From positions 1-20,767 of IMG/VR virus record IMGVR_UViG_3300025101_000246: a DNA stretch of 20,767 bases. One strand, 5' to 3'. This DNA comes from a virus. Below, one piece after another: positions 10,883-20,730 of this stretch. The notes under the pieces were generated by a model, which worked only from the letters and a program-made list of their open reading frames with translations, searched no databases and was not told where the DNA came from. The translations under genes and the position numbers were made by a program. Within the stretch, counting starts at the first letter, position 1, and each line of letters starts with the position of its first letter.

Positions 10883-11758
10883 TTACTTGACTGATATCAA
10901 CTCATCATGAAACTTGCCTTGGTATTGATGCTCACCTATGTGTACAATCGCGTCATTAATATAAGCATAGCATTTACCCCCTAAGTCTCTCCAAAGCTTG
11001 CAGAAGGCAAAATCTTCACCATTATAAGTCTTCTCTTTAGGATCATGAAGAGTGTCAAAAAAATTCCACATGTTAGGTTTGTTGACATACTTTCCATTAA
11101 TAACAGTTTTTTGAACTATTTCTTTATCAGGATATTTCTCTATCATTTTTTCAATAACCTCTCTTTTAATAAGCATACATCCTGTTGGTGAATCAGTAAC
11201 TTCCATTACTCCTTTATCAAGCTTTATATTATTTGGATCTGGAACTTTCATAGGATAAGTATGTAAAGCTCTTCTAATATCATCAGGCGATTTTATTCTA
11301 CCCTCTTGCATTTTAGTAAAAGCTTTTTCCCACATTAAAGTTTTAAGTGGGTATGGCACAGATATTATATGTTTATCTGCCTTCAGCATGGCAAATATAG
11401 ACTTACCTTGAAAATATATATCTGAATCAATAAATAATAAATGTGTTGCTTTCGATTCAAGAAATCCTGCAACTGATAGGTTTCTTCCTTGTGTAACCAA
11501 AGATGATTTAATTAAATGAAATGACACTTTAAGTTTTTTCTTAAAACATTCTTGTTGAAATTCTATTAAAGCTTGAGTGTAATGTATTGAAACTTCACTA
11601 TGCACAGGTGTTGCAACAAAAACCTCAGTATTTTTATATTGATTAGAATCTTCTTTCCATAAAGGTTCCGTAGCTTTTTCATAATCAGATTGTGTTTCTA
11701 TGCTGACTTCTTGTAACGTTTGATATGTATCCTCATTTATATATTTACTGCTTGACAC
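10883..11758 (-). CDS. GT-A fold glycosyltransferase
   Basis: A 291-residue glycosyltransferase of the nucleotide-sugar-dependent GT-A type. Evidence: a Rossmann-like start 'EVFVATPVHSEVSIHY' (45-60), 'TQGRN' (89-93), then 'ATHLLFIDSDIYF' with the metal-binding D-x-D at 111-113. Later come 'DSPTGCMLIKREVIEKM' and 'GEDFAFCKLWRDLGGKCYA', the acidic acceptor-side region, and a late His ('VHIGEHQYQG'). The start is GTG at 11758, supported by AAAGGAG 6 nt upstream; no better ATG is nearby. It overlaps the preceding glycosyltransferase gene by 14 nt, so the two are probably co-translated and act together. Substrate and acceptor cannot be told. Plausible targets are virion proteins, phage DNA or host surface sugars; placement within structural genes favours virion decoration. 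Confidence 0.82.
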   Translation of the reverse strand: MSSSKYINEDTYQTLQEVSIETQSDYEKATEPLWKEDSNQYKNTEVFVATPVHSEVSIHYTQALIEFQQECFKKKLKVSFHLIKSSLVTQGRNLSVAGFLESKATHLLFIDSDIYFQGKSIFAMLKADKHIISVPYPLKTLMWEKAFTKMQEGRIKSPDDIRRALHTYPMKVPDPNNIKLDKGVMEVTDSPTGCMLIKREVIEKMIEKYPDKEIVQKTVINGKYVNKPNMWNFFDTLHDPKEKTYNGEDFAFCKLWRDLGGKCYAYINDAIVHIGEHQYQGKFHDELISVK

Positions 11759-12674
11759 TTAGAGCTCCTTTCAAAAAGTTTGTCCATTCCATAGCTTTTT
11801 TATCCCAGCTATAAAAATTTTTATAATATTTTTGTTGTTCGTTTAAATGGTTTTGTATTATATCTGTGTGTAAGTATTGTGCACTTGTATCTATGGCACC
11901 TGCAATGCTCTCTGCTAATAATTCTAAATTTTTTGTATAATTCACATAAACAGGCCATTCAGCACATGTTTCAGGCAAAGCACCAAAGTTTGTTGTTATA
12001 ACGTGAAGACCAGCAGCTAAAGCTTCTAAAGCTGAAGCACAAAACGTTTCTTCAAATATAGATGGGTAGACAAACAAATCGTAGTCCGTCATATGCTCTA
12101 GTATGTATTCATTAGGTTTGTAACCAATGTAATTTACATTAGGTAATTTTCTAGCTTGATCAAATAGTCCCTCTGTATCTTTATTTGCTTTATCAGCAAA
12201 CTCCTTACCGTAAACATCGTTAGAACTATATACATCTAAAGTAATATTTTTATTTTGTATAAACTGCATGGCTAACAACAACACGTTCAGTCCTCTCCAA
12301 GGAGTGCAATGGTGCATAATTCTTATAGGTTCACCTTGTTTATATATTTTTCTTTTTGGGAAATGATGTGCTCCATTTTTAATAACTATTGATCTATCTT
12401 CAGGAACTTGAAAAAAATATCTAAATTTTTCATAACACCAATGTGAATTAAAAACATACCAATCGTATTCATGATGTCTATCTTTGTTTCTAAAAAAGCT
12501 TTGTAAGTTTGGTTGATCCCAAGAATTTTTTTGCCAAAGTATATTAATCTTACTAGGATCTAGTGGCACCTTTCCTGGTATAGATGTGCATATTTGAAAT
12601 TTATCTAATAAATCTTTTGCAACATACTTTTCAAGCAGTTCATGCTGTAACTCAGTTGCGCCTCTAGGTTTCAT
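11745..12674 (-). CDS. GT4-family (GT-B) glycosyltransferase
   Basis: A 309-residue glycosyltransferase of the GT-B fold, GT4-like. The C-terminal nucleotide-sugar domain is clear: 'PIRIMHHCTPWRGLNVLLLA' (116-135), 'PNVNYIGYKPNEYILEHMT' (178-196), then 'DLFVYPSIFEETFCASALEA' (199-218), where Glu209 and Glu217 form the E-x7-E motif, followed by 'AAGLHVITTNFGALPE'. The N-terminal acceptor domain is short for the family (usual proteins run about 350-400 residues), as in other phage versions. The start at 12674 shares a base with the stop of the 66-aa gene (TAATG). It lies upstream of, and overlaps, the GT-A enzyme, so two sequential sugar additions are possible. Confidence 0.87.
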   Translation of the reverse strand: MKPRGATELQHELLEKYVAKDLLDKFQICTSIPGKVPLDPSKINILWQKNSWDQPNLQSFFRNKDRHHEYDWYVFNSHWCYEKFRYFFQVPEDRSIVIKNGAHHFPKRKIYKQGEPIRIMHHCTPWRGLNVLLLAMQFIQNKNITLDVYSSNDVYGKEFADKANKDTEGLFDQARKLPNVNYIGYKPNEYILEHMTDYDLFVYPSIFEETFCASALEALAAGLHVITTNFGALPETCAEWPVYVNYTKNLELLAESIAGAIDTSAQYLHTDIIQNHLNEQQKYYKNFYSWDKKAMEWTNFLKGALSVKQ

Positions 12675-15699: not shown

Positions 15700-16245
15700 T
15701 TACTCTAAATTATAAAAAGGCATATTTTTATCGTATTTATAATCTGCAAAAGGGCCGTTTTGATCAACGTAATGTAAAAAACATTGTGCATGCCAATCTC
15801 CAGTAAAATTTTTACGATAGTGTTGTAATTCACAACCCAAATAAATACAGGCATCTCCTGGAAACATATTAATAGGTTTATCTTCCATGTATATTGGCCA
15901 CTCCGTGCCATCACTACCAAGCATCACAGTAACTGATATCTCACAAGATGGTCTATCTTTGTGGGGTTTAAGCTCAGAATTGTATGTATATAAACGAGTA
16001 AAAGAATAAGTAGGAAATAAATTTAAATTTGTTTCTTTTTCCATAAGTTCTTTTTTATTTAAAAGCAAAGATTCTCCTAAAGGGTCTTTGTAAAATATTG
16101 TGTCTGAATTATTATTTTGAACAAAATCAAAATCAACTCTATTGTTATTATGTTTAATTATCATATATTTTTTTGCTAATTCTGTTTCTTCTTTAGTCAA
16201 AAAGTTTTTGATAATTTTATATTTTAATTCTTTTATAGTAGCCAT
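15700..16245 (-). CDS. 2OG-Fe(II) oxygenase-like protein (first of two)
   Basis: A 181-residue protein resembling phage 2-oxoglutarate/Fe(II) dioxygenases of the prolyl-hydroxylase group. Candidate iron ligands are His95 and Asp97 in 'LKPHKDRPSCEISVTVML' and His142 in 'GCELQHYRKNF'. These are followed by 'WHAQCFLHYVDQNGPF', typical of short marine phage versions. The N-terminus 'KIIKNFLTKEETELAKKYM' is the usual lead-in helix. The 2OG-binding basic residue is less clear (Arg144 is a candidate). It overlaps the second oxygenase by 13 nt and belongs to an extremely AT-rich trio of genes. It may hydroxylate a virion protein or small molecule; the substrate is unknown. Confidence 0.75.
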   Translation of the reverse strand: MATIKELKYKIIKNFLTKEETELAKKYMIIKHNNNRVDFDFVQNNNSDTIFYKDPLGESLLLNKKELMEKETNLNLFPTYSFTRLYTYNSELKPHKDRPSCEISVTVMLGSDGTEWPIYMEDKPINMFPGDACIYLGCELQHYRKNFTGDWHAQCFLHYVDQNGPFADYKYDKNMPFYNLE

Positions 16246-18032: not shown

Positions 18033-19337
18033 CTACGTATCGTTTTCAAAAATTAATATGGAACCACCTCTTGCTGGTCTTGGACCAACACCTCCTGGAT
18101 TACTTGTTCCGCTTTTTGATTGACCTGATCCAGCGTGAAAACCTATTACAGGTCTTAAATTGTAGTTTCCTGCTCCTGGTCCGCTAACAGCTGGAGAGTT
18201 ACTATCAACAAAAAAAGTTGCATCCACAGTTCCATCAGGCGAAGATGCGTTTGTGATACTTCCCGCGTTAGCTGGATTAATTCCTGAGAATCCTCCCTGA
18301 TTAGATCCAGTACCACCACTTCCGCCACCGCAAGTAAATAAAGCTGGAGATCCTAATGTTGTTGCACCGCCAGAATTTCCAGCGTTTGCATTATATCCTC
18401 CAGTCCCGACATTTCCTGTACCACCAAGAGAGTAAGGTGCCGAAAAAGGTGCAGTCACTGGAATTCTATAAACGGCATAACCACCGTCTCCTCCAGCTCC
18501 ACCAGCTCTTCCTTGGCTTGAAGTTCCGCCAGCTCCACCGCCTCCGCCAGTAGCGTAAACAATTAATTCTGTAGTTGCTGGGTTAGCAGTAAAAGTTCCA
18601 GATCCAGGACCTGTAGCCATAAAGTTTGGTGTAAACCCTTTACTACCTCCTGCTCCAGTGGATGCTGCTGTCAAACGACCTTGAGCATCAACAGTTATAC
18701 TTGCAGAAGTATAAGATCCTGCAGTGACTGAAGTGTTAATTAATTGATCCGCTCCAACAGCATCGTCTGCAATTTTATCTTGAGTAACTGCATCATTATT
18801 AATAGTAGCGGTAACAACTGCGTTGTCAGAAATTTGTGCTGCTCGAATTGCATCGTCAGCTATTTTTGCATTTGTAATTGCATCGTCAGCTACTTGAGCA
18901 GTCCCTATAGTTCCACCCAATGTATCAAGTGATACCTCAGTTAAATTTGTACCATCTGAATAAGCAGCATAAATTTTTTGTGCATCTGGACTAAACCCAG
19001 TTCCTGAAGCTGTTTTGATTGTAAGGTTAGATGGGTTTGTTACTCCCGTGCAATCAAAGATATAAAATTTTTCTATTGAATCTGGAATAGTACAAACTGT
19101 GCTAGCTGCAATCGTTGCAGTTGCAAATTTAATAACTAAATTTCTTGCATTAGACAAAGCACCATCAGACATTGCAAGTGCAAGAGTACCACCAGATGAA
19201 AGAGTTACTTGTTCAAAACCTGCAATAGCTTGTTGTACTAAATTTAAATTTGTATTTGTTTTATCACCCCATGTACCAGCGTTTTCACCGGTTACCATTA
19301 GTTCTAATTTTAGATCACTTGAATAACTAGATGCCAT
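18033..19337 (-). CDS. Tail fibre with decapeptide repeats and glycine-rich tip
   Basis: A 434-residue receptor-binding fibre candidate. The N-terminus 'MVTGENAGTWGDKTNTNLN' (14-32) is the attachment motif seen in many marine phage fibres. Residues 151-200 hold five tandem ten-residue repeats (consensus D-D-A-I/V-x-x-A/D-K/Q-I-A/S), suggesting a trimeric shaft. 'ITVDAQGRLTAAS' (214-226) is a common fibre element. From about 262 to 425 the protein is very Gly-rich ('GGGGGAGG', 'GGGSGGTG'), recalling polyglycine-helix adhesin tips such as those of T4-like gp38. The ATG has an excellent AAGGAG 8 nt upstream in a 37-nt gap. It is likely to set host range. The last codons are followed directly by the possible chaperone gene. 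Confidence 0.85.
   Translation of the reverse strand: MASSYSSDLKLELMVTGENAGTWGDKTNTNLNLVQQAIAGFEQVTLSSGGTLALAMSDGALSNARNLVIKFATATIAASTVCTIPDSIEKFYIFDCTGVTNPSNLTIKTASGTGFSPDAQKIYAAYSDGTNLTEVSLDTLGGTIGTAQVADDAITNAKIADDAIRAAQISDNAVVTATINNDAVTQDKIADDAVGADQLINTSVTAGSYTSASITVDAQGRLTAASTGAGGSKGFTPNFMATGPGSGTFTANPATTELIVYATGGGGGAGGTSSQGRAGGAGGDGGYAVYRIPVTAPFSAPYSLGGTGNVGTGGYNANAGNSGGATTLGSPALFTCGGGSGGTGSNQGGFSGINPANAGSITNASSPDGTVDATFFVDSNSPAVSGPGAGNYNLRPVIGFHAGSGQSKSGTSNPGGVGPRPARGGSILIFENDT
18738..18887 (-). repeat. Five tandem 30-bp units encoding a decapeptide repeat
   Basis: Residues 151-200 of the tail fibre: DDAITNAKIA, DDAIRAAQIS, DNAVVTATIN, NDAVTQDKIA, DDAVGADQLI. The DNA units are diverged except for shared blocks such as GCATCGTCAGC (plus strand), so the protein repeat is older than any recent slippage. 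Ten-residue periodicity suits a regular trimeric fibre shaft. Copy number could change by recombination. Confidence 0.75.
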
Positions 19338-19374: not shown

Positions 19375-20730
19375 TTAGGCAGCCAAATCAACTACCGTCC
19401 ATGTATTAGATACCCCTAAATCTATTTCTGCCCAAGCAGTTGTTGCTGGACTTCCCACAGAAGCTGACATTTGAATGCCTGAAACGTCTATTCCAGCTTC
19501 ACCTGTAGCTGTTACAGATCCAATAGAACCTGTCATCGAAGTTCCTGTAACAGGATAAACATTAGCTTGTTCCTCTTCTCCCAAAGTCATTGTAATACTC
19601 TGTCCAGTTACTGGTTCAGTAGTTGTTTGCTCTAATGCAATTGTGCCTAGGGTAAACGTTGCTTGCACTCCTGTGACTTCTGCAATAAATTTAGGCTCAG
19701 GCACCACTTGACCTATTGATCCTGATAATGAAATACCTGAAGGTTCTGCTTTAGCATCTCCAGTAAGAGTAACGCTTCCTAATGTAAAATCTAATTGATC
19801 TTCAGCTGCGTTAACAACAGTTCCAAAATCTCCAACTAATGAAATTATTCCTTGCGTAGAAGTAAGAGATTGACCTGTAACTGAAACTGTTACATCAGTT
19901 ATTCCTGCTTCTTCACCAATAGAGGATGTTAAACTCTGTCCTGTTAATGCAACAGAATAGTTTACACCCCAAGCAAATTCTCCCCATGCTGATCTACCCC
20001 AACCTTCTCCTGTTAGTGTAGATTCATCTACGGTGGCTGCTCCAATGCTTGAAGTTATTGAGGATCCAGTTGTGAGTGCACCTATTCCAGATACTACTTG
20101 ACCTACACTAAAAGATCCTAAATTTCCACTTAATGAAACTGAAACAGAAGATCCTCCAACAGATGTTCCTTGAGAAGATGTGATTTGTGATCCAGTTACA
20201 TCAATATCTGCGTTAGCTGTAATTGATTCTAAAGAACCTATGCTTGAAGTAAGTGATATTCCTGTAGCAGAAATATCAACGTGACCTTGATCTCCCCAAA
20301 CTCCTGATCCCCAAGATAATCCACCCCAGACATTTGATTCAATATCAAATATACCACCCATGCCAATCCCATGAACATAACACAGATAATAAAAATCAGT
20401 TGCTGATGCTGGAGTTACTTCAACATATCGTGTTGTTGCAGCATTAAAAGTTGTTGTGTTGGTATAGTTAGCTTGATTACTTGAACCATCGAGATAATAA
20501 GTTACACCAGAAGAAATAATTCCAGAGGTGCTTGTGTTTGTAGAAAAAATTAATGGGTGGCCATCATTGGTAGCTTCGCTTTGATCAAATCTTAAAGTCC
20601 CACCTTCTACCCAATTTACTGTTCCAGGTCCTGTAGAATTTCTAGATCCGTTTAAATAAAAAACGTTTCCTGTTCCACCGCCATATAGGTTTCCTGAAGC
20701 TACGGTTACTGTATAAGTATACTCTGCCAT
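19375..20730 (-). CDS. Virion protein: cupredoxin-like domain plus beta repeats
   Basis: A 451-residue secreted-looking virion protein without a signal peptide. Residues about 1-128 form a cupredoxin-like domain: 'GNVFYLNG' (21-28), 'GGTLRFDQSEATNDGHPLIF' (43-62) and 'YYLCYVHGIGMGG' (114-126). His58, Cys117, His120 and Met124 are spaced like type-1 copper ligands. Two Trp-Gly clusters follow (135-146 and 244-255). From about 156 to 426 at least ten copies of a motif (T/S)-G-x-x-(L/I/M)-T-x-S-(I/L)-G occur every 20-45 residues, suggesting stacked beta modules. The end 'WAEIDLGVSNTWTVVDLAA' has two similar W-x-x-(I/V)-D-L pieces. The ribosome site is weak. It precedes the tail fibre, so a tail or baseplate-like accessory role is likely. 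No phage family name can be assigned safely. Confidence 0.75.
   Translation of the reverse strand: MAEYTYTVTVASGNLYGGGTGNVFYLNGSRNSTGPGTVNWVEGGTLRFDQSEATNDGHPLIFSTNTSTSGIISSGVTYYLDGSSNQANYTNTTTFNAATTRYVEVTPASATDFYYLCYVHGIGMGGIFDIESNVWGGLSWGSGVWGDQGHVDISATGISLTSSIGSLESITANADIDVTGSQITSSQGTSVGGSSVSVSLSGNLGSFSVGQVVSGIGALTTGSSITSSIGAATVDESTLTGEGWGRSAWGEFAWGVNYSVALTGQSLTSSIGEEAGITDVTVSVTGQSLTSTQGIISLVGDFGTVVNAAEDQLDFTLGSVTLTGDAKAEPSGISLSGSIGQVVPEPKFIAEVTGVQATFTLGTIALEQTTTEPVTGQSITMTLGEEEQANVYPVTGTSMTGSIGSVTATGEAGIDVSGIQMSASVGSPATTAWAEIDLGVSNTWTVVDLAA

Follow-up and report, generated by a model that had tools for sequence, protein, structure and literature searches.

In this work, we describe a domain at the start of a structural protein of an ocean phage that is predicted to fold like the blue-copper electron carriers of photosynthesis and that keeps all four residues used to hold copper in these proteins. 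The same domain recurs on tail and baseplate proteins of hundreds of marine phages, suggesting that their virions probably carry copper, although copper binding and redox activity have not been shown. Cupredoxins are well known, but we found no previous description of a conserved cupredoxin on virion structural proteins, nor of a purpose for it, in the open-licence papers searched.

The domain was found in a stretch of viral DNA of 20,767 nucleotides (IMGVR_UViG_3300025101_000246), hereafter the window. The features relevant to this study are the following:

19375..20730 (-), whole gene, 451 aa, with the predicted cupredoxin followed by repeats (WGxxxWG and TGxxxTxSxG types) and a conserved C-terminus
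20341..20730 (-), predicted cupredoxin domain, residues 1-130 of the 451-aa protein
20557..20559 (-), His58 codon, predicted first copper ligand (FDQSEATNDGHPL)
20380..20382 (-), Cys117 codon, predicted thiolate ligand
20371..20373 (-), His120 codon, predicted second His ligand
20359..20361 (-), Met124 codon, predicted axial ligand
18033..19337 (-), adjacent tail-fibre-like gene, 434 aa
13511..15664 (-), virion structural protein, 717 aa

The initial annotation placed a cupredoxin-like domain with a complete type-1 ligand set at 20347-20730, which covers residues 1-128, whereas the domain runs to about residue 130. The four residues are exactly as it numbered them. Cys117 is the only cysteine of the whole protein, and its only histidines are 58, 120 and 150. 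All of the 78 full-length close homologues from IMG/VR, which vary from 415 to 969 aa, keep the four residues. Weak tblastn hits in isolates led us to cyanophages S-B68, ACG-2014h, Bellamy and S-H9-1, pelagiphage Mosig, Methylophilales phage Melnitz and phage 023Pt_psg01, all with FDQSDxSNxxHPL ... YYC-x2-H-x2/3-MG or a close variant of it. Searches with these sequences and an iterated HMM gave 359 domains in 351 loci. In their alignment, His58, Cys117, His120, Met124 and Gly125 are the only positions at 100% (H in 359/359, C and the second H in 357/357, M in 356/356, the rest being gaps), while overall identity falls to 30-40%. The spacing is C-x2-H-x2-M in 248 domains and x3 in 107, as in the window, and 257 of 260 distinct domains hold exactly one Cys. 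This conservation is not a consequence of how the domains were collected, since of 195 domains that carry a ligand-free search peptide and no ligand-containing one, 193 keep the C-x2-H-x2/3-M motif. A chance motif is therefore rejected. In some loci there are two cupredoxin domains back to back, or a second divergent copy near the main one (L043, 2614-2985 and 3001-3378; L366, 3187-3522 and 3559-3873; L077, 1475-1852).

The GHPL element and the wide occurrence of the pattern in marine phages, both proposed in the initial annotation, were also confirmed. Among isolates, the domain of S-B68 matches 176 of 50,697 phage records, all of them marine, that is, Synechococcus, Prochlorococcus, Pelagibacter, Methylophilales and marine metagenome phages. 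The PHROG families hit by members are tail fiber, baseplate wedge and wedge-fibre connector.

An AlphaFold2 model of residues 1-137, built with 62 homologues, had a pLDDT of 90.6 and a pTM of 0.86. In this model, His58 lies just before strand 60-63, Cys117 closes strand 113-117, His120 lies in the turn after it and Met124 at the start of the last strand, which is the canonical arrangement. The 50 PDB hits listed by Foldseek are all cupredoxins or cupredoxin-fold proteins (multicopper oxidases, NirK, laccases, factor VIII), with 33 hits at E 1e-3 or better and a best E of 1.4e-4. VIA gave Z 8.3 to the N-terminal cupredoxin of three-domain nitrite reductase (NirK), 7.2 to rusticyanin and 6.5 to auracyanin A, but also 6.7 to one unrelated beta-barrel family (SO1698), and these values are moderate by themselves. 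A second subfamily (represented by locus L090), modelled from its own alignment, gave a pLDDT of 93. VIA ranked only cupredoxins in the first 50 for this model (Z 6.3-8.6, including plastocyanin, nitrosocyanin and a Nitrosopumilus purple cupredoxin), although Foldseek gave no E below 1e-3 and mixed Ig folds with cupredoxins.

Sequence comparisons pointed in the same direction. Amicyanins and plastocyanin-family sequences were retrieved from annotated plasmids, and hhalign of the phage alignment to them gave E 3.4e-4, with His58, Cys117, His120 and Met124 on amicyanin His53, Cys92, His95 and Met98. With cellular relatives added, E was 1e-5 and the probability 82%, again with ligands on ligands. 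Moreover, 9 of 46 family members match PF00127 (Copper-bind; best 4.3e-5), and a marine Woeseiaceae protein (L411) passes its curated cut-off (21.4 vs 21.2 bits). NCBI models for plastocyanin (4.1e-4), amicyanin (0.0021), sulfocyanin (0.0011) and halocyanin are also touched. A profile search of the PDB returned mostly plastocyanins and other copper proteins, none significant alone. Nevertheless, the window protein itself matches no Pfam family and none of the NCBI copper models, and a PF00127 search of its own record found nothing, so the assignment rests on fold plus transitive homology and the domain is placed in the cupredoxin superfamily, not in PF00127. The phmmer hits of the single sequence to NCAM/antibody and ribosomal L31 proteins were low-complexity or Ig-like chance matches, gone or outranked once a profile was used.

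Extra, very divergent copies were collected from seven annotated phage genomes and two dozen contigs. Five of them (L462-L465, L474) keep all four ligands at E 1e-11 to 1e-27, whereas eight (L466-L473) lack Cys, the second His and Met, only two of them keeping the first His. P-HM2 (NC_015284.1; 50974-51627, 74711-74986, 97248-99119) holds four intact copies plus one damaged copy on three large ORFs, and P-HM1 has the same set. A P-HM2 copy has His at the Cys position. S-PM2 (NC_006820.1; 50424-50873) holds one damaged copy, with an insertion in the middle and CATQ instead of CxxH, which keeps the first His and Cys but lacks the second His and Met. Ligand loss is thus not strictly all-or-none but, apart from domains cut by a contig end, no copy found lacks exactly one ligand (L235 carries a two-residue insertion between Cys and His). 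This is what a metal site predicts and what packing residues would not. A metal-free Ig-like structural domain, whose four residues are conserved for packing, could be suggested by the Ig domains among the Foldseek hits of the second model and by the degenerate copies, which show that the fold can persist without ligands. However, the ligands are the most conserved positions, they vanish several at a time, and a single Cys is kept in nearly all distinct domains, making this explanation very unlikely.

The window belongs near HTVC023P/HTVC027P-type pelagiphages. Its 717-aa virion protein (phrog_3287, E 1.9e-88) is 61%, 55% and 48% identical to those of HTVC023P, HTVC027P and 023Pt_psg01, respectively. 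The structural gene block also includes two adjacent genes (10883-12674, -), one glycosyltransferase-like (phrog_2170) and one of phrog_1574. A 181-aa protein (15700-16245, -) matches PHROG "ferrochelatase" families (1.1e-51), as do annotated pelagiphage genes, but its sequence (PHKDRPSCEISV...LQHYRKN..WHAQCFLHYVD) looks like a 2OG-Fe(II) oxygenase and the neighbouring 193-aa gene is a clear one (PF13640), so the ferrochelatase label is probably wrong.

The tail-fibre-like gene that follows the cupredoxin gene in the window matches phrog_892 tail fiber (E 2.5e-15) and others, and its N-terminus is 73% identical to the HTVC023P putative tail protein. In a relative (L009), the cupredoxin gene follows four small genes, among them a phrog_12985 and a phrog_644 protein, and also precedes a tail-fibre-like gene. 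The L009 homologue is 40% identical over the full length to the window protein and shares its last 20 residues (..VDLAA). The C-terminal part of the window protein (19375-20340, -) is made of repeats with WGxxxWG pairs. The HTVC027P gene gp68, upstream of its tail protein, resembles the repeats but has no cupredoxin. As the repeats are of low complexity, homology is in this case probable, not certain. In 023Pt_psg01 the cupredoxin is instead fused to the front of the phrog_12985 protein, 49% identical to the free-standing L009 protein. This is probably a head-tail structural protein, judging mainly from its place in the gene order, since phrog_12985 has no named function. Elsewhere, the domain lies towards the C-terminus, after a T7 tail-fibre N-terminal domain (L409, domain 430-534 of 587) or a T4 gp9/10 N-terminal domain (L407; L420, last 109 residues, the T4 match of L420 being just below its cut-off). 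It is thus a module that moves between virion proteins, and the description as a tail module in the initial annotation is only partly right, since in the window it sits on a repeat protein encoded next to a tail-fibre-like gene.

A scan of 84,980 prokaryote genomes found 61 loci, by their titles almost all marine MAGs or single cells. Some are phage contigs, but SAR86 and Woeseiaceae proteins with lipoprotein-like N-termini, Marine Group II archaeal proteins with collagen-like stalks, cadherin/Ig proteins and a 3,861-residue Ig/lectin-rich protein on a 1.06-Mb Bacteroidetes contig look cellular. Their four ligands are intact. Interestingly, a window-type cupredoxin (L418, 1625-1984; shared insertion, CYVHGNAMG) lies in a 929-aa protein with a CBM5/12 carbohydrate-binding module, on a short contig binned as a Euryarchaeota MAG. 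The gene tree mixes phage and cell rows with support too low to indicate which way the domain moved between phages and cells.

Based on our data, we favor, with moderate confidence, the view that the first 130 residues are a cupredoxin with an intact type-1 copper site of amicyanin-like loop type, displayed on the virion. Homology to cupredoxins is almost certain, and both copper binding in vivo and exposure on the virion are likely. We infer that the domain is made apo in the host cytosol and takes up copper after lysis from seawater or the host envelope. Its most likely job, although this remains tentative, is at host contact, as a copper-stabilized attachment or docking module that engages the host surface or copper-handling proteins there. 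This role is favored by the distal placement on fibre-type proteins and by the use of the domain on cell-surface adhesin-like proteins. It is weakened because the domain is N-terminal in the window, internal in large baseplate proteins, fused to the head-tail type protein in 023Pt_psg01 and missing from the corresponding protein of HTVC027P, which infects SAR11 without it there.

Alternatively, the copper might cycle between Cu(II) and Cu(I) at the host surface, through extracellular reductants or superoxide from active cells, and gate irreversible adsorption or ejection, which could underlie the light-dependent adsorption of some cyanophages. Type-1 sites, such as those of plastocyanin, azurin and amicyanin, are built for electron transfer. 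Moreover, P-HM2, which does not adsorb in the dark, carries the intact copies, whereas P-SSP7, whose adsorption is light-independent (PMC7112961), has none. However, these two phages also differ as myovirus and podovirus, and two phages are no test. P-HM1 has the same copies as P-HM2, S-PM2, apparently light-dependent as well (Jia 2010), holds only a damaged copy, and pelagiphages of non-photosynthetic hosts have the domain. We therefore consider a redox switch unlikely, although the domain, on proteins now labelled "hypothetical" or "tail fiber", offers a candidate for redox- or light-sensitive adsorption of cyanophages. More speculatively, and with low probability, marine phages may carry blue-copper proteins as working parts of the virion, with several copper sites per set of structural proteins as in P-HM2, and use copper redox state or copper-dependent docking to decide on adsorption, the module being shared by exchange with surface proteins of marine bacteria and archaea.

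Compared with amicyanin and plastocyanin (PF00127, TIGR02656, TIGR02657), the phage domain shares the predicted cupredoxin fold and the His, Cys-x2-His-x2-Met ligands in order. It differs in being part of a repeat-bearing virion protein, in an extra insertion around residues 84-100 and in having Pro instead of Asn after the first His. Unlike soluble plastocyanin of the phage-carried petE type, a single-domain exported protein, the window protein starts MAEYTYTVTVASG without a signal peptide and continues into repeats. The Pro residue, together with the fact that Cys/His2/Met sites of cupredoxins accept other metals in vitro, might indicate that the site binds Zn, Fe or Ni, or serves only as a structural metal staple, but the invariant axial Met and the closeness to copper families make this improbable. 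In fact, His-Pro after the first ligand also occurs in multicopper oxidases, as seen in the alignment to copper oxidase 6vox. Multicopper oxidase and NirK cupredoxin domains (2dv6 N-domain, laccases, CueO) were the best structural matches, but the window protein has no HxH motifs for type-2/3 copper, so no oxidase chemistry is expected.

The nearest published idea is that of the HxH iron-binding tail fibres of T4 (gp37) and alterophages (R22Y), for which an iron "Ferrojan horse" was proposed (PMC11705849). By analogy, the virion-bound copper might be bait for host copper-uptake receptors, which would be in accordance with the marine-only distribution among isolates, in a trace-metal-poor habitat. 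This seems doubtful, since type-1 copper is buried and bound very tightly, carriers include proteins not at fibre tips, and cells display the same domain on themselves. Both systems involve a metal-binding module proposed on marine phage tails, and the cupredoxin supplies a phage counterpart to the iron Trojan-horse idea, but the fold, the metal and the motif are different, and no HxH is found in the window protein.
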